A DNA stretch of 64,000 nt from Roseateles koreensis (GTDB lineage: Bacteria; Pseudomonadota; Gammaproteobacteria; Burkholderiales; Burkholderiaceae_C). This document shows positions 6,831 to 17,131 of this stretch, one piece after another (the first letter of the stretch is position 1; every line of letters begins with the position of its first letter). The notes beneath the pieces are model-generated. The model made no database searches. It had not been told where the DNA came from and was given only the letters and a program-made list of their open reading frames with translations. The translations under genes were made by a program, and so were the position numbers. The stretch is from contig NZ_JAQQXS010000005.1 in NCBI RefSeq assembly GCF_028595305.1, forward strand, positions 124,001-188,000, written 5' to 3'.

Positions 6831-7859
6831 ATGAAACTTGCCACCTATAAAGACGGCTCCCGTGATGGTCAGCTTGTCGTCGTTTCGCGTGACCTGAGCC
6901 AGGCGCACTACGCCAACGGTATTGCAAGCCGCCTGCAGCAGGTGCTGGACGACTGGGGTTTTTTGTCGCCCCAGTTGGAGGCGCTTTCGGTCAGCCTCAA
7001 TCATGGCAAGTTGCGGCATGCCTTCAATTTTGAGCCCGCACGGTGCATGGCGCCCTTGCCGCGCGCCTACCAATGGGCCGATGGCTGCGCTTACCTCAAC
7101 CATGGAGCGCTGTTGCGCAAGGCGGCGGGGGTAGATATGCCTGAGAACGCCGCGCTGGACCCGTTGATGTGCCAGGGCGGTAGCGATGATTTTCTGGGCG
7201 CCTGCGAACCGGCGCGTTTTGTGTCCGAGGCGATGGGCATTGACTTCGAGGCGGAGATTGCCGTCATCACCGGCGATGTGCCCATGGGCGCCACGCCCGG
7301 GCAGGCGCTGGAAGGCGTGCGGCTGCTGATGTTGGCCAACGACTGGCGCTTGCGGCATTTGATCCCGGCGGAGTTGGCCAAAGGTCAAGGGTTTGTTCAA
7401 AGCAAGCCGGCCACCGCGTTCAGTCCGGTGGCCGTTACGCCCGACGAATTGGGTGCGGCCTGGGCCGGGGGGCGGGTGGATTTGAGTTTGCAGTCCATGT
7501 GGAACGGCCGCAAAGTCGGCCAGTGTGAAGCCGGGCCTGAAATGAATTTCCACTTCGGTCAGCTGATTGCCCATCTCGCCAAGACGCGGCGGGTGCGTGC
7601 CGGCAGCATTGTGGGCTCAGGGGCAGTCAGCAACAAGGATTGGAGCCGTGGCTACAGCTGCATCGCTGAAAAGCGTGCGATTGAAACCCTTGAAAAGGGC
7701 GTGCCCAAGACCGAGTTCATGAAGTTTGGCGACAGTATCCGCATCGAAATGAAAGGCCGCGACGGCTTGAGCGTGTTTGGCGCCATTGATCAAGATGTGG
7801 TGTCTGTGCATGAGCCCGAGGCGCCTGAGGCGGGCGCGGCGCCGGGCGCTACAGTCTGA
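6831..7859 (+). CDS. Fumarylacetoacetate hydrolase (FAH) family protein
   Basis: 342 residues. Homologues cleave C-C bonds of fumarylacetoacetate-type or related 2-oxo acids with a divalent metal. The metal-site pattern is present: FEAEIAVITGDV (the E-x-E pair), then ANDWRLRHL for the later acidic ligand region, followed by SKPATAFSPVAVTPDEL and GAVSNKDWSRGYSCIAEKR. The N-terminal about 80 residues form the usual FAH-specific subdomain. The start ATG is overlapped by the stop of an 11-codon upstream reading frame. It could be true fumarylacetoacetase of tyrosine catabolism, but no hmgA or maiA gene is next to it, so the substrate is left open. Confidence 0.85.
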   Translation: MKLATYKDGSRDGQLVVVSRDLSQAHYANGIASRLQQVLDDWGFLSPQLEALSVSLNHGKLRHAFNFEPARCMAPLPRAYQWADGCAYLNHGALLRKAAGVDMPENAALDPLMCQGGSDDFLGACEPARFVSEAMGIDFEAEIAVITGDVPMGATPGQALEGVRLLMLANDWRLRHLIPAELAKGQGFVQSKPATAFSPVAVTPDELGAAWAGGRVDLSLQSMWNGRKVGQCEAGPEMNFHFGQLIAHLAKTRRVRAGSIVGSGAVSNKDWSRGYSCIAEKRAIETLEKGVPKTEFMKFGDSIRIEMKGRDGLSVFGAIDQDVVSVHEPEAPEAGAAPGATV

Positions 7860-8660: not shown

Positions 8661-9386
8661 ATGAATGATTCTTCCAACGAGACGCCCGATCTGAACTCGA
8701 TCCCGAGTGCTGAGGAGGCGTCCGCCGCTCCGGTAGTTCCCCCGTCAACAGCTGCTCCGGTGGCCGCCGACCTGTCTCCTGCCGAGTGTGCCGCCAAGTT
8801 GCGTGCCTTGTTTCCGGCCCTGTTTGGCGGGCGTGATTTCAAGCCGCTGAAGCTGCGCATCCAGGCGGACATCCAAGAGCGCGCCCCGGGCCTGTTCACG
8901 AAGGCGCAGCTCTCGGCGTTTCTGCGCCGCTTCACCGGTAACACCGGTTACCTGATTGCGCTGGGCCGGGCCACGCATCGCTTCGATCTAGATGGTCAGC
9001 AGGCCGGCGAGTTGAGCGAAGAACATCGTCTGGCTGCTCGCGAAGAGTTGGCACGCCGACGCGGTCTGCAGCAAGAGCGCATCGAGTTGGAACAAACCCA
9101 GGCCCGCAACCGCGCGGGGCTTTTGCATGATTTTGAGCGCACGACCCTGACCTTGAGCAATTTCTGCGTGCTCAAAGGCGTGACGGAAGCCGAGCTGCCC
9201 GGGCTGCTGGAGATTGCGCGTGCCGAGCGTGCCGCCCAGCCCGCGCAAGAGCCGCGAGACACGCAGCGGCCCCGTCAACCCCAGCAACCCCGCCGCCCGC
9301 AGCGGGCGGGAGGCGAGCGTGACGCTGACCCACGGCAGCGCGGGCCGCGTGGCCCACGTCCCAATGCCGGCCGCCCGGCACGGTAA
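8661..9386 (+). CDS. proQ: ProQ/FinO-family RNA chaperone
   Basis: 241 residues. The ProQ/FinO domain occupies about 30-130: AAKLRALFPALFGGRDFKPLKLRI, then LSAFLRRFTGNTGYLIALGRATHRFDLDG. ProQ proteins bind structured 3' ends of sRNAs and mRNAs. The N-terminal about 30 residues are acidic and low-complexity. The C-terminus (from about 195) is a disordered Arg/Pro/Gln/Gly-rich tail, in place of the Tudor-like C-terminal domain of E. coli ProQ, so RNA contacts outside the FinO domain may differ. metH part 1 starts 24 bases downstream. Confident for the family; the gene name follows domain content. Confidence 0.85.
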   Translation: MNDSSNETPDLNSIPSAEEASAAPVVPPSTAAPVAADLSPAECAAKLRALFPALFGGRDFKPLKLRIQADIQERAPGLFTKAQLSAFLRRFTGNTGYLIALGRATHRFDLDGQQAGELSEEHRLAAREELARRRGLQQERIELEQTQARNRAGLLHDFERTTLTLSNFCVLKGVTEAELPGLLEIARAERAAQPAQEPRDTQRPRQPQQPRRPQRAGGERDADPRQRGPRGPRPNAGRPAR

Positions 9387-9398
9387 ATCTGGCCTTCC

Positions 9399-9404
9399 TA
9401 CAAT
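9399..9404 (+). promoter_or_regulatory. Candidate -10 hexamer just before metH part 1
   Basis: TACAAT ends seven bases before the ATG at 9411, so a start of transcription at the usual distance would fall on the start codon itself. There is no Shine-Dalgarno sequence in the short gap. This would make a leaderless mRNA. A matching -35 hexamer is not evident. Confidence 0.4.
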
Positions 9405-9410
9405 GCTCGC

Positions 9411-10460
9411 ATGAACGCCATTCACTACACCCGCGGCGCAGCGCTGCCCGCCATCATGCAAAAGCGCATCGTCATACTTGATGGCGCGATGGGCACCATG
9501 GTGCAGCGCTACAAACTCACCGAGGCTGATTTTCGTGGTGAACGATTTGCTGCGCATGGCAAGGACCTCAAGGGAAATAACGATTTACTTCCCTTGACCA
9601 AGCCCGAGGTGGTTCGCGAGATTCACGAGCAGTATCTGGCGGCGGGCGCCGACATCATCGAAACCAATACCTTCGGCACTACCTCGGTGGCGCAGGAAGA
9701 CTATGGCCTGCAGGACTACGCCTACGAGATGAATGTGGCGGCGGCACGCCTGGCCCGAGAGGCCTGCGACAAATACAGCACGCTGGACAAACCGCGATTT
9801 GCGGCGGGTGCGCTCGGCCCGACGCCGCGCACGGCGTCGATCAGCCCGGATGTCAATGACCCCGGCGCGCGCAATGTCGATTTCGACACCTTGCGCGCAG
9901 CCTACTACGAGCAGGGCAAAGCCTTGCTCGATGGCGGCGTCGACCTGTTCCTGGTGGAGACGATTTTCGACACCTTGAACGCCAAGGCCGCCATTTTTGC
10001 GCTCGATGAATTGATGGAAGACACCGGCGAGCGCCTGCCGGTGATCATTTCTGGCACGGTGACCGATGCTTCGGGTCGTATTCTTTCCGGACAGACGGTC
10101 ACCGCGTTTTGGCATTCGGTGCGTCACGCCAAGCCTTTGGCCATTGGCTTGAATTGCGCCTTGGGGGCGACGTTGATGCGCCCCTATATCGAAGAATTGG
10201 CGAAGGCGGCGGGCGCCACGGCGATCAGTTGCTATCCCAACGCAGGCTTGCCCAATCCGATGAGCGATACCGGCTTCGACGAGACGCCCGATGTCACCGG
10301 GCGCTTGATGGAAGACTTCGCCAAGAGTGGATTTTTGAACATCGTTGGTGGCTGCTGTGGCACCACGCCTGCGCACATTGCCGCCATTGCGCAGCAGGTC
10401 TCGGCCTACAAGCCGCGGGTTTGCGGCGACAAGTTCTTCAGCAATCTGGTGAGCGCCTGA
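9411..10460 (+). CDS. metH: Methionine synthase, N-terminal homocysteine S-methyltransferase half
   Basis: 349 residues covering only the zinc-dependent homocysteine-binding module of cobalamin-dependent methionine synthase. It starts with [13 protein letters not shown] and carries the three zinc cysteines: C249 in GLNCALGA and C315/C316 in [11 protein letters not shown]. The full E. coli enzyme is about 1,230 residues; here the remaining domains are a separate protein at 14399-17131, so the two must assemble in trans. Two-piece MetH is known in Burkholderiales, but here three other genes lie between. The last 23 bases overlap the convergent Crp/Fnr gene. The gene itself is intact, not a pseudogene. 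Confidence 0.93.
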
Positions 10461-11286
10461 AGTCGGGCGGCGACAACGCGGGGCTCATGTCCACCTTGTC
10501 GCTGGCGAATTCGATCAACTTGTCCAGGTCAAGAATCACGATGCAGCCATAGCGCAGCGCAATCAACCGAGCCTCTTTGAGTTTGCGAAGGGCGAAGTTG
10601 ATGCGTTGCCGGCTGGAGCCCAGGATGTCTGCAAAATCGTCTTGCGAAACTTTCTGCTCGATGACCAAGGTGCCTGATCGGGGAATGCCATAACGCTTGG
10701 CCCACAGGACCAGGGTGCTGGCCAGGCGGATGTCGATGGCCTGCCCGGTATCGCGGTTGAGCTTGGCGTAGGCCATGCGCATTCGGTAGGCCAATTGCAA
10801 TTCGATGGCACGGCCGATGCCTGGGTCTCGCAAGCGCTCTTGGCGCACATGCGCCCCTGGAATCAGCAGAACCTGGGTGCCCGGCGACCGCGCGCAAGTG
10901 TCATAGGGATAGAGCGAGCCGTCGACCATCGGCACGTAGCCGACCGTGTCCCCCGCCATCTGTACCCCCAGCAGATAGCGTTGCCCGTCCATGCGCATCT
11001 GGCTGAAATTTAACGCGCCGTCGACGATGACGGCAAGCATGTCAAAGGGCTCGCCGTTGTGGATCAGATGCTCGTCTTTGGCCAGCACCTTCAAGTGCCC
11101 GCCGCCCACCAGCCGCTCGAGGGTTGCAGCAGAACAAGCGCTGAAGCCCAGGGTTTGGGCCAGATAACGGTGCGCTAATTGACGGGCTTGTTGACTTGCG
11201 CAGGTGCGAGGTTGTAGCGCCCGGTTTGTATGTTGCGGACGTTGTGTGCATTGGGAGGCGGCGTCGACCTTGAAATCAACAAGCAT
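10438..11286 (-). CDS. Crp/Fnr family transcriptional regulator
   Basis: 282 residues from ATG 11286; the frame is open upstream but that part does not look coding. An N-terminal cyclic-nucleotide-binding-like beta roll ([33 protein letters not shown]...) is followed by a dimerisation helix and a C-terminal winged helix with [30 protein letters not shown], the Crp-type HTH. The four-cysteine pattern expected for an oxygen-sensing Fnr is not seen, so the effector is unknown. It overlaps the 3' end of metH part 1 by 23 bases tail to tail, and stands divergently from the PEP-CTERM gene, whose promoter region it may control. Confidence 0.8.
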
Positions 11287-11455
11287 GGCATTGAACCCGG
11301 GCAGTATCAGTGGTTCAGTTTTGCCGAAATTCAACCGGCTAACCGGGGCGGGTTGTAGCCAACTGGAGCGACAAGGCACAGTTCGAAAAGTCGGAACGAC
11401 TGGACGATTTTTGAGCCTATGGCAATGGAAATGCGCCCCTGGGGCGCACCCTGTT

Positions 11456-11478
11456 CTGTCCAATTTTTGACAGATTGG
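11456..11478. repeat. Two interleaved inverted repeats
   Basis: CTGTC (11456-11460) pairs with GACAG (11469-11473) and CCAAT (11460-11464) pairs with ATTGG (11474-11478). The arms alternate in the order a-b-a'-b', the arrangement of an H-type pseudoknot in RNA or of two overlapping protein-binding palindromes in DNA. It is in the intergenic region between the Crp/Fnr gene and the PEP-CTERM gene. Confidence 0.45.
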
Positions 11479-11496
11479 CGGAGAGACTGACTCGAA
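11476..11496 (-). other. tRNA-Ser-like 3' end fragment
   Basis: Read on the minus strand this 21-base piece is a TTCGAGT T-loop followed by a sequence ending CTCTCCGCCA, which is how betaproteobacterial tRNA-Ser genes end. Four of five T-stem pairs can form with the bases before the loop. The segment after the loop is two bases too short, and no matching acceptor strand, D arm or anticodon arm is found upstream. It is a fragment or a chance match, not a working tRNA gene. Confidence 0.3.
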
Positions 11497-11571
11497 CAAT
11501 GGACTCCTCCAACCTCGGACCCGTCATTTCAGGCGGACCTTCGGAGGTTTCAATCATTCAGAGGAATCTTC

Positions 11572-12723
11572 ATGCATATGTCAAAGATTGCCATCGCGGC
11601 ATCGGTCTTCTGCGCCGCAGTCCCTTCCGCGCATGCCGATGCTCCGCAATACACCTTCGTGGATCTGGGCGTGATGTCCGCCGGTGACAGCTCGCAGGCT
11701 ACGGCGATTTCGGCCAACGGCCAAACCATTGTTGGGCGCAATCTGGGCAGCACCAGCTTTACGCCGGTCATGTGGTCGAGCGGGGGCGCGATCATCGGCA
11801 TGAGCAGCCCCTATGTCTATTCAAACGCCTTGGCCGTGAATGACAGCGGGGTATCGGTAGGTGTTGGACAGAACAACCTGCGCTATGGCCAGACCCCGAT
11901 GACGTGGAGCAGCAGTGGCGTGGGCACGGCACTCGCCCTGCCGAGCGACTACTTGACGGGGCAAGCCAATGGCATCAACAACAACGGCATCATCGTTGGC
12001 AGCGTCGGGTCAAGCAGCAGTCAACGGGCTGCCATGTGGAACAACGGTGTCCCGTCCATCATTTCCGCGACCGCTGCGGATGGAAGCTTCATGACCGTGG
12101 CCAAGGGCATCAACGCCAGCGGACTGATCGTTGGTCAAGGTGTGAACCCGAACAATGCCGCCCTGAGCGTGGGCCTAGTCTATGACACTGTGAGCGGGAA
12201 GATGACCGAATTGGCACCGCTTTCCGGCATGAACGGCACGGCGCCCTATGCCATCAACAGCAGCGGAGCGATTGCAGGCTGTAGCAATGTCAATGGGGGC
12301 GGCTGCACGCCGGTGGTCTGGTCTTCAAACGGCACGCTCACCCAAATGGCATTGCCGGCTTTGGCCTCAAGTGGCTATGGTGTGGCCATCAATGCTTCTG
12401 GCCAGGTGCTGGGCAGCGGGGGCGGGGCCTACTCTGTACCCTTTTTGTTTGATGGCACAGCGACCTACAGCATTGCCAGTCTCGTGCCGGCTTCGGTGAT
12501 CGCCGAGGGTTGGGACTTTTCCAACAACACCGCGACCTCCGCCACCGGGATCAGTGACCAGGGTGTGATCGTGGGTACGGCGAATTCGCCGGGAGGCACT
12601 GCGCATGCCTATGAGTTGATCCCGACTGCCGCCGTGCCAGAGCCTGGCACCTTGGCAATGATGGTGGCCGGTTGTCTGATGATCTCCGGGCTTTCGCGCC
12701 GCCGCATGAAGCGGGACCGCTGA
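11572..12723 (+). CDS. HAF-repeat extracellular protein with PEP-CTERM sorting signal
   Basis: 383 residues. A signal peptide (IAIAASVFCAAVPSAHA) is followed by repeated units of about 45-55 residues of the form A-x-x-I/V-N-x-x-G-x-x-V/I-G, with W(S/N)xxG segments between (ATAISANGQTIVG, NGINNNGIIVG, KGINASGLIVG, YGVAINASGQVLG, TGISDQGVIVG). This is the HAF-type extracellular repeat. The C-terminus VPEPGTLAMMVAGCLMISGL then SRRRMKR is a classic PEP-CTERM signal, processed by an exosortase/archaeosortase-type enzyme; none is in the window. AGAGGAA lies six bases before the ATG. It is richer in Ser, Asn and Thr than its neighbours. Probably surface-attached or exopolysaccharide-associated. Confidence 0.85.
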   Translation: MHMSKIAIAASVFCAAVPSAHADAPQYTFVDLGVMSAGDSSQATAISANGQTIVGRNLGSTSFTPVMWSSGGAIIGMSSPYVYSNALAVNDSGVSVGVGQNNLRYGQTPMTWSSSGVGTALALPSDYLTGQANGINNNGIIVGSVGSSSSQRAAMWNNGVPSIISATAADGSFMTVAKGINASGLIVGQGVNPNNAALSVGLVYDTVSGKMTELAPLSGMNGTAPYAINSSGAIAGCSNVNGGGCTPVVWSSNGTLTQMALPALASSGYGVAINASGQVLGSGGGAYSVPFLFDGTATYSIASLVPASVIAEGWDFSNNTATSATGISDQGVIVGTANSPGGTAHAYELIPTAAVPEPGTLAMMVAGCLMISGLSRRRMKRDR

Positions 12724-12946: not shown

Positions 12947-14143
12947 TCACAATTTCAGCAACCGCTCCATATTCACTAGCAATTTCAGTTCATGCGGGGC
13001 GAGGCTGCCGGCGACGGCCTGGGTGGTCAGCCGTGTGTCCCGCGGTACTGGCTCACTCAACGGATTGCCACTCTTGCCCAGCAGCGCAGCCACCATGGGC
13101 TCCGTCGCGCTGTGACCACGCTTGAACACCATGCCAACTTCTCCATTGGCCAGGCGAACCAGGCTCCCCGGCGGGTACAAGCCCAGCGTTTTGATGAGGG
13201 TGGCACCCGCTTCATCGGGTTGACGCAACTCATCCAGATAGACCGACCGGCTGGCGCTTGCGCCGGCCATGGCTTGGCGGGTGCGTCGCGGGCTGAGTCG
13301 TGCGGCATAGCTGTCGATGCGGCGCAGCAGGCGGGCCAGGTGCTCGGCCGGCGAGCGGCCCGCCAAAGGGCCCGGCCCCACTTCGTGGTGGAGGCGCACC
13401 GTATGCAGCCAAAGTTCGGCGCTCACCCCCAGGCTTTCCAGCAGCGCCGCACTGCGATCGCCGTGGCCCATCAAGGTGCGCCGCTGGGCCTCGGTGGCTG
13501 CGTCTTGCTGGCTGGCCAAGCGGTCTTGTGCAATGGTGATGGCGATGTTCATGCTCAGCGCTGCTTGCGTCAGGGCCAGTCGATGGTCATCGGGCAATCC
13601 CAAATGGCGAGCACACAATTCAGCCAAGACCAGGCACAGCAGCGCGTGGCGGCTGCTATAGCGCGAGAAGTCCTGGCTGGACTCAAAGATCAGCAGCGTC
13701 AATGTTGAATCGGGTTGGCGCGCAAGCCGTGCAAGGGCGTCGTTATGCAGCTGCTGAAAGCGCGGGCGAAAGTCCTCCACCCGAGGCTCACGCAAGAGGC
13801 TGGCGGCATGTTCGTGAAAATCAGCCCAGGCGGCTTGCAGGCCCAACTCCGGGCGGGCGCTTTGGCGTTCGTTTTTGACGATGTCTGCCTCGGCCTTGAT
13901 GATGTCGCCCAGCGCGGCACCTTGGTGCATCAAGGTGTCCATCTTGTGGGCCAGGGCTTTTTGGTATTCCTTGGTTTCGTGGGCCTGGACCCACACGCCA
14001 CGGGCAATCACCTCCCGCATATGGGGGCTGTCATGCAGGACTTGGCCTTTGATGACCAGCAGCTTCCCTTCGGCGTCCCGAATGGAGTAGGGCAAGGGGT
14101 GACCAAAGCGCAGTGCAACAGCAGGAAACGGGATCAGGTCCAA
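12947..14143 (-). CDS. Degenerate HD-GYP-like protein
   Basis: 398 residues. The layout is that of HD-GYP cyclic-di-GMP phosphodiesterases found in Burkholderiales: an N-terminal about 140-residue region, then SSRHALLCLVLAELCARHLGL (about 163-183), GHGDRSAALLESLGV (about 226-240), VRLHHEVGPGPLAG (about 249-262), RRIDSYAARLSPRRTRQAM and GLYPPGSLVRLANGEVGMV near the end. The His-Asp pair that should occur at about 199-200 is replaced by Met-Asn (ALSMNIA), and the GYP motif reads GPG-PL. Only H227 and HHE252-254 remain, so catalysis is doubtful and a binding or regulatory role is more likely. It is transcribed away from metH part 2. Confidence 0.7.
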   Translation of the reverse strand: MDLIPFPAVALRFGHPLPYSIRDAEGKLLVIKGQVLHDSPHMREVIARGVWVQAHETKEYQKALAHKMDTLMHQGAALGDIIKAEADIVKNERQSARPELGLQAAWADFHEHAASLLREPRVEDFRPRFQQLHNDALARLARQPDSTLTLLIFESSQDFSRYSSRHALLCLVLAELCARHLGLPDDHRLALTQAALSMNIAITIAQDRLASQQDAATEAQRRTLMGHGDRSAALLESLGVSAELWLHTVRLHHEVGPGPLAGRSPAEHLARLLRRIDSYAARLSPRRTRQAMAGASASRSVYLDELRQPDEAGATLIKTLGLYPPGSLVRLANGEVGMVFKRGHSATEPMVAALLGKSGNPLSEPVPRDTRLTTQAVAGSLAPHELKLLVNMERLLKL

Positions 14144-14240
14144 ATCGGCATCGCTCTCTTTTTTGTAGATTGTCGTCTTGAAATCCGTTGAACTTGAGAA
14201 TTAGGACTCGAGCGCTCCGGCTGAGCGTAAAATCCAGCTC

Positions 14241-14343
14241 GGTTCAAGGAGCGTTGCGACAGGCCTTCAGGGGCGTGCCAGGCTTGAACAAGGGGTGCCA
14301 GCGGATGAGTCCGACTGCGTGCTCTCCTGCAACGGCGCTCACC
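14241..14343 (+). promoter_or_regulatory. S-adenosylhomocysteine (SAH) riboswitch upstream of metH part 2
   Basis: The sequence matches the known betaproteobacterial SAH aptamer. P1 is GTTCAAG (14242-14248) with CTTGAAC (14283-14289). It is followed directly by the conserved GAGCGTTGC (14249-14257), the conserved GCCAGG lies at 14277-14282, and AACGGCGCTC at 14331-14340 closes the structure: GAGCG (14249-14253) pairs with CGCTC (14336-14340) as the P4 helix. An extra hairpin (CGGA-TGAG-TCCG, 14302-14313) sits in the variable P3 position. SAH aptamers are ON switches that raise expression of SAH-recycling genes. Downstream, CCGCG/CGCGG (14360-14376) with five T's at 14385-14389 and GAGG before the ATG may form the expression platform. 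Confidence 0.85.
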
Positions 14344-14398
14344 GAATCCCTGTACTGGGCCGCGGTGAGTTCGCGGTCATCGAATTTTTGAGGCTGCC

Positions 14399-17131
<2,733 letters not shown>

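Follow-up and report, generated by a model that had tools for sequence, protein, structure and literature searches.

An S-adenosylhomocysteine riboswitch before one half of a split methionine synthase in Roseateles koreensis, and its differing placement among relatives

Roseateles koreensis encodes a methionine synthase in two parts, by the separate genes metH1 and metH2, in the 64,000-nucleotide (nt) stretch analysed here (contig NZ_JAQQXS010000005.1, positions 124,001 to 188,000; called the window, in whose numbering its features are given). A riboswitch aptamer of the S-adenosylhomocysteine (SAH) class precedes metH2. We think it probable that this element is a cis-acting SAH ON switch which gates the two-part enzyme through MetH2, MetH1 being constitutive. 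Related bacteria carry the element elsewhere, and we consider it probable that the switch moved between subunits: at first on metH2 alone, it would have been added to metH1 by a single copying event within a Rhodoferax-like branch, after which the group of Comamonadaceae bacterium OS-4 would have lost it from metH2. The features on which the argument rests are the following.

9411..10460, forward strand: metH1, homocysteine-binding half, 349 amino acids (aa), with PF02574 (S-methyl_trans) alone
14399..17131, forward strand: metH2, folate/B12/activation half, 910 aa, with PF00809 (Pterin_bind), PF02607 (B12-binding_2), PF02310 (B12-binding) and PF02965 (Met_synt_B12)
14240..14347, forward strand: SAH riboswitch aptamer (RF01057), with P1, P2, pseudoknot and conserved core, ending 51 nt 5′ of the metH2 ATG
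14242-14247 with 14284-14289, forward strand: P1, GUUCAA with UUGAAC (cmscan alignment)
14260-14265 with 14272-14277, forward strand: P2, inside P1 (14242..14289; cmscan alignment)
14249..14257, forward strand: pseudoknot 5′ strand, GAGCGUUGC (cmscan and sequence)
14329..14340, forward strand: pseudoknot 3′ strand, GCAACGGCGCUC (GCAAC(G)GCGCUC; cmscan and sequence)
about 14292..14326, forward strand: additional hairpin lying between P1 and the 3′ strand of the pseudoknot, the P4 of an earlier note on this DNA (fold)

The earlier note had claimed an SAH aptamer with P1, core and P4, and had proposed a covariance search with the Rfam SAH model. This search (cmscan) gave a match above the cut-off: RF01057 aligned over model positions 1-78 of 78 with 51.4 bits against a gathering score of 37 (E 1.5e-6), all the named parts are present, and no other Rfam family exceeded any gathering score in the whole window. 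The two pseudoknot strands are complementary (GAGCG(U)UGC versus GCAAC.GCGCUC). R1, a covariance model built in this analysis from 15 aptamers, scored the same site at 69.8 bits, the runner-up reaching 15.1 bits; the value for the window is partly so by construction, because its aptamer is one of the 15 sequences of R1. The leader (14241-14401) is of unremarkable stability (z -0.59; 48 of 200 shuffles folded equally well), and it is therefore the covariance match, rather than stability, that argues for the aptamer.

The target of the riboswitch is a gene of the S-adenosylmethionine cycle, identified as metH2 by its Pfam domains. The domains of MetH are shared out over the two genes, each with a part only, and the metH1 translation contains GLNC and GGCC, which we take to be the zinc-ligand motifs. 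In the genome as a whole, two SAH elements scored above the cut-off, one before metH2 and one before ahcY (located by tblastn, 76% identity). None precedes metH1, the weak matches in this genome (at most 19.1 bits) all being on other contigs, so that the placement before the C-terminal metH half only, as first described, stands. The MetE N-terminal domain PF08267 was not matched in this genome, and MetH thus looks like its main methionine synthase, other kinds of synthase not having been searched for. Compared with RF01057 at large, the element is alike in its full-length match, P1, P2, pseudoknot and core, and the genome's second copy precedes ahcY, the usual target. It differs in preceding one half of a split metH, and the window's group differs further in having a hairpin with a GUGAG loop (hairpin II, below) placed after the pseudoknot strand and ahead of the Shine-Dalgarno.

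In the working that we propose, a build-up of SAH would turn on MetH2 via the cis-acting riboswitch, and hence the two-part methionine synthase; MetH1 would be made from its own leaderless-type promoter, free of SAH control. Gating the large B12-carrying half would suffice because both halves must meet for the reaction. A rise in SAH would switch on ahcY along with metH2, leading both to the cleavage of SAH and to the remethylation of homocysteine. This working starts from what was observed (the aptamer, the gene identities, their separate placement, its conservation and the lack of a MetE N-terminal domain) and would further require ligand binding, an ON direction, a translational output, a leaderless start, an excess of MetH1 and the assembly of the two halves.

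Comparison of the metH1 and metH2 leaders in relatives, also proposed earlier, showed that one-sided control is kept. The first genome set held 59 genomes including the window's own, 35 from its family (G000-G034) and 24 from other families; the family count rests on the 34 genomes with both halves, a fragmentary assembly (G002) having given neither. From coordinates and reading of the leaders, an SAH element stands directly before metH2 in 31/34 (it is missing in G018, G026 and G032), versus 0/34 before metH1. A regular expression matched all 31 family leaders with an Rfam match and none of the three without. Searches over more than 40 genomes used stricter filters, by which some weak matches were lost. 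In the other families, 19 of the 24 genomes have a fused MetH, as shown by a metH1 frame of 1236-1337 aa; the remaining five comprise two divergent cases with frames below 900 aa (G035, G045), a 595-aa frame at a contig edge (G040), a split gene (G050) and a genome with no match (G053). By coordinates, none of these 24 has an SAH match within 30 kb of a metH match, and three have no SAH match at all.

Named genomes were searched with metH2 and the best 80 loci retained, over which R1 gave 35 strong and two weak matches. Thirty-four of the strong matches precede metH2, five of them (L013, L026, L029, L042, L069) being sequences of the R1 model itself, and one (L033) precedes metH1. A weak match before metH2 (L030, 19.4 bits) was nevertheless recognised by the regular expression. 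Among the same 80 loci, 13 have a fused MetH without element, all under Oxalobacteraceae or Polynucleobacter names, and 26 are split without element, nearly all from Burkholderia, Paraburkholderia, Caballeronia, Cupriavidus, Trinickia and Pandoraea; here the halves are adjacent, except at L082, where a 1.3-kb gap separates them. No element was found at two Aquabacterium loci (L019, L021), and upstream sequence is missing for L032, L072 and L078.

Two observations on gene arrangement may be added. At L102, L105, L106 (G013, G016, G017), L108 (G019), L120 (G028), L024 and L042, metH1, riboswitch and metH2 stand side by side, the element lying in the gap of ~130-235 nt between the halves, which possibly form one operon. 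G031 carries two copies of metH1 ~11 kb apart (C1:444934-445932 and 456757-457755).

We then turn to metH1, whose likely promoter and surroundings are listed here.

9399..9404, forward strand: TACAAT, six bases 5′ of the ATG at 9411; the likely -10 box from which metH1 would be transcribed leaderless
8661..9386, forward strand: ProQ/FinO-family gene (PF04352) just 5′ of metH1, a possible source of read-through
10438-11499, reverse strand: Crp/Fnr-type regulator open reading frame (ORF), between the halves
11572-12723, forward strand: ORF of a PEP-CTERM-like protein (Pfam scores slightly below the cut-offs), between the halves
12947-14143, reverse strand: ORF without Pfam match, between the halves

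The TACAAT close to the metH1 ATG, with no riboswitch leader, had been pointed out before and was found again; its spacing of six bases lies within the 5-9 bases to the start codon used here for a leaderless -10 box. TACAAT followed after 6-9 bases by an in-frame ATG occurs in 42 of the 53 metH1 genes of metH2-only genomes, compared with 1/30 in split genes without riboswitch, 0/6 where both halves carry the element, 0/3 in metH1-only and 0/12 in fused genes, tallies which are counts and not tests, related genomes not being independent. Shuffled metH1 upstream regions gave a fraction of 0 to 0.0017. None of nine metH1 genes with their own riboswitch shows the motif; TAAAAT precedes the aptamer instead (11/11). 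In the window's own genome, TYCTACAATN{5,8}ATG occurs four times versus 0 for the reversed control, and the three other sites (C12:148141-148159, C33:150491-150508, C35:34250-34267) mark candidate leaderless genes. Leaderless genes with a TA-rich motif directly 5′ are reported in Burkholderia cenocepacia, in the part of that study consulted (PMC4603805). As judged from these motifs, metH1 appears usually to have a leaderless-type promoter where metH2 alone is gated. In the window, a single transcript spanning both metH halves was also considered and judged unlikely, because 3.9 kb and two ORFs on the other strand separate metH1 from metH2.

The metH2 leader has the following features outside the aptamer core.

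14228..14233, forward strand: TAAAAT, with its end 6 bases 5′ of the aptamer; likely -10 box for metH2 transcription (sequence)
14338..14369, forward strand: hairpin I, CUCACCG (14338-14344) with CGGUGAG (14363-14369), overlapping pseudoknot bases
14358..14378, forward strand: hairpin II, GGCCGCG (14358-14364) with CGCGGUC (14372-14378), loop GUGAGUU
14390..14393, forward strand: GAGG, Shine-Dalgarno of metH2 (sequence)

Sixty-one of 66 metH2 leaders have TA[AG]AAT within the 30 nt that precede the aptamer. The probable output is easily read off in many leaders of Comamonadaceae, where the 3′ pseudoknot strand continues into CUCACCU, which is complementary to the Shine-Dalgarno AGGUGAG. Its counterpart in the window's group pairs with CGGUGAG, which is no longer the Shine-Dalgarno, is partly in the loop of hairpin II and lies 5′ of the Shine-Dalgarno. 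Hairpins I and II compete, since bases 14363-14364 are common to both and the remainder of hairpin I would need the loop of hairpin II.

Fifty-four of the 66 leaders were scored by folding, 31 of a direct type and 23 others including the window, the ‘bound’ state being a stand-in with the aptamer bases removed from pairing. In the 31 direct leaders the mean chance of an unpaired Shine-Dalgarno rose from 0.06 in free RNA to 0.36 in the ‘bound’ state, versus 0.25 and 0.34 with shuffled linkers. In this model the direct-type leaders would on average act as a translational ON switch, a support that the window's own leader does not share. Several results indeed weigh against the gating that we propose. 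The 23 non-direct leaders, the window's group, gave 0.24 in both states, with no switch modelled; the window leader itself gave 0.04 in both, hairpin I having a probability of 1.00 in free RNA and hairpin II of 0.00 in the ‘bound’ state. One of the 31 direct leaders (L028) shows no rise. Twelve of the 66 were left out, having no recognisable Shine-Dalgarno under the rule used; by eye, two of these (L018, L020) have a misplaced start codon, while GTG is the probable start of L016, also one of the twelve, and of L076, which belongs to the scored 23. On the side of metH1, TACAAT is missing in 11 of the 53 metH2-only genomes.

Hairpin II was examined further. The window start site opens (0.35) only when this hairpin is imposed. 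It has at least 4 pairs in 29/29 leaders hand-chosen for having this platform (range 4 to 10, mean 8) with changes on both sides, C-G, G-C, U-A and U-G pairs all being found at one position. When its arms were swapped between species (1000 exchanges) the mean was 5.1 pairs and the highest 6.6, a comparison in which the own-species value is inflated, as the best 3′-arm offset was taken. With hairpin II imposed rather than hairpin I, the start site was more open in 22/22 leaders, by 0.01 (L113) to 0.60 (L013), in runs that are not alike, the aptamer being barred from pairing solely in the hairpin II run. The unforced ‘bound’ model forms hairpin II in some relatives (0.91-0.97 in L102, L105 and L106). 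A three-step relay in the window's group, from SAH binding to hairpin II and then to the freeing of the Shine-Dalgarno through the 3′ arm, was tested and not established. Pairing of the 3′ arm with the start site reached -11.2 kcal/mol versus -7.5 for shuffled arms (0 of 300 shuffles as low); between different species it was -11.1 kcal/mol (59 of 300 as low), and because cross-species pairing nearly equals own-species pairing, covariation gives the relay no support.

The same hairpin could be read as a transcription terminator, by which SAH would turn metH2 off in the window's group. It is G+C-rich (14358-14378), is followed by AUCGAAUUUUU and competes with hairpin I. However, the U run of the window starts six bases past the stem, and L016, L076 and L120 share the hairpin yet have no U run. 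An OFF response would also oppose the role of the SAH class, whose ON response and structure were reportedly established by Wang et al. in 2008 and Edwards et al. in 2010. We consider a terminator very improbable.

Evidence on the generality of MetH2 gating came from OS-4 (L033), where the Rfam match (6986-7066) precedes the metH1 start (7091), metH2 has no element and the other SAH element precedes ahcY. Sixty-one genomes were drawn around OS-4. Twenty-four of them (G096-G119) repeat the earlier other-family genomes; among the 37 others (G059-G095), 17 gave a metH1 match and 20 none (E 1e-40). As a side observation, 14 of these 20 (which include G060, G062-G064, G068 and G069) are below 3 Mb, and two of those without metH1 match, G087 and G091, keep a match to the C-terminal part of metH2. 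G078 (metH2 start unassembled) and G088 (metH1 76 nt from a contig edge) were set aside, which left 15 decidable genomes. The element stands before both halves in seven (G061, G067, G070, G080, G081, G083, G089; in G070 the halves are on separate contigs), before metH1 only in three (G059, G065, G092, one of which is OS-4), before metH2 only in four (G066, G071, G073, G084) and before neither in one (G076). As these relatives show all four states, a riboswitch on ‘only one half’ is characteristic of a lineage and cannot be taken as a rule.

In the OS-4 relatives the elements stand, on reading the sequence, directly before the gene starts. Their metH2 leaders carry CUCACCU...AGGUGAG versus, in seven of 11 metH1 leaders, CUCACUU with AAGUGAG or AGUGAG, so that the mask has changed on both strands. 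Folding raised the unpaired chance of the start-site element from 0.00-0.15 to 0.23-0.66 in 10 of 11 metH1 leaders (G081 has no partner under the rule), and 10 of 11 metH2 leaders also rise, G071 (0.27 to 0.26) being the exception. Placement on both halves or on metH1 only in this Rhodoferax-like branch is new as far as we found.

These genomes bear on what had been claimed at the outset. A riboswitch upstream of the first half, which the earlier note had set against its own claim, is absent from the window's genome and 34 family genomes but present in this related branch. The unequal control noted there is real, and kept in the family, but relatives gate both halves or metH1. Likewise, the proposal of a gated folate/B12 half with the first half in excess fits the window's lineage, given its metH1 motif, but such asymmetry does not hold generally. 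The seven ‘both’ and three metH1-only genomes suggest that the gate can lie on either half, and a fixed biochemical reason for MetH2 as the limiting half is thus not supported.

The order of events was examined in a tree of metH1 and MetH N-terminal parts (97 proteins; support by the Shimodaira-Hasegawa-like approximate likelihood-ratio test, SH-aLRT, only; 41 of 94 inner branches open), from which the partial genes of G070 and G078 were left out. The 12 fused rows group together (100), as do the 25 split rows without element (95), the 25 metH2-only rows of the window's group (99) and 35 Comamonadaceae rows (99). The latter comprise 22 metH2-only, six ‘both’, four without element and three metH1-only rows; these last three cluster together (99) within a 12-row branch (91) holding all six ‘both’ rows, whose nearest named kin is a Rhodoferax metagenome-assembled genome (L042, 94). 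Placement labels require nine changes on this tree. In the simplest order, a fused gene would first have split, then gained the element on metH2, then also on metH1, and then lost it from metH2.

In a tree of the aptamers (52 columns, most forks weak), 11 metH1 aptamers fall together (SH-aLRT 99), apart from 15 ahcY aptamers (95) and among the metH2 ones (80-86); one metH2 row, L042, is on the ahcY side. The aptamer sequences would suggest that the metH1 copies arose once, on the metH2 side and not on the ahcY side. Separate copying of each metH1 element from the ahcY element of the same genome is unlikely, since the metH1 aptamers group together, apart from those of ahcY.

The unequal control might alternatively be neutral history: after the gene had split, a riboswitch would have arrived in front of the downstream half and then changed halves through copying, loss and rearrangement, with no stoichiometric demand behind it. 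The four placement states among the 15 decidable genomes would be expected, as would the split loci without riboswitch in Burkholderia, Paraburkholderia and Cupriavidus, and the nesting of the metH1-only group inside the branch with ‘both’ rows. Drift alone, however, should lose both more often, and the retained metH2-only state of the family, accompanied by the leaderless signature of metH1, weakens this explanation; we hold it possible, though the less likely one.

In a further explanation, MetH1 would be free of SAH control owing to other partners or methyl donors, like MtgE, the homocysteine subunit of marine bacteria. That metH1 holds the homocysteine domain alone agrees with this, and in the marine MtgBCDE system the homocysteine subunit is likewise encoded apart, consistently, for its authors, with constitutive production (PMC12478193, seen in part). 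Yet, according to the same portion of that paper, the marine subunits have a separate evolutionary origin and did not simply separate from classical MetH; ‘riboswitch’ occurs there once, in a reference title. Moreover, metH1 is itself gated in OS-4 and relatives, and we regard this explanation as improbable.

An SAH riboswitch before metH has precedent. In the portion consulted of Leyn et al. (2014, PMC4239095), the SAH riboswitch of Comamonadaceae has MetH among its taxon-specific targets; the target is the same, and the half concerned, or placement on both or on the first, is not stated in that portion. No paper on half-specific placement came up in literature searches of open-licence full text in PubMed Central, the supplements of PMC4239095 being outside this scope. 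Two-part MetH is already described, with mild phenotypes on disruption of either part in Sphingomonas koreensis; the split is the same, and the main text has 0 occurrences of riboswitch (PMC7857596).

A side observation concerns ahcY. Tandem complete SAH riboswitches, 29-62 nt apart, precede this gene in three of 31 genomes of one family, in two genera, all six aptamers being above the Rfam cut-off.

G044:C93:83612-83683 and 83462-83549, reverse strand: tandem SAH pair L183
G128:C64:142569-142645 and 142449-142534, reverse strand: tandem SAH pair L190
G139:C182:75695-75760 and 75790-75877, forward strand: tandem SAH pair L191

In L183 a terminator-like hairpin with a U-rich tail comes after the first aptamer and uses part of its pseudoknot strand (-23.5 kcal/mol; none of 200 shuffles was equally stable), and the second aptamer lies immediately 5′ of the Shine-Dalgarno. 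In the part consulted of a review of tandem riboswitches from 2022, SAH is placed among the classes not found in tandem (PMC9481103).

Matched supply is commonly assumed to be needed when an enzyme is built from separate subunits. In these close relatives the same metabolite switch is found on either subunit or on both, so that leader swaps could test directly which of the two limits and whether control of a single one suffices. The pattern suggests that a riboswitch was copied from one gene to its partner gene. If the switch did move between subunits, a single riboswitch would suffice to gate the enzyme, whichever subunit carried it, and the genomes concerned would amount to a natural experiment on subunit balance.
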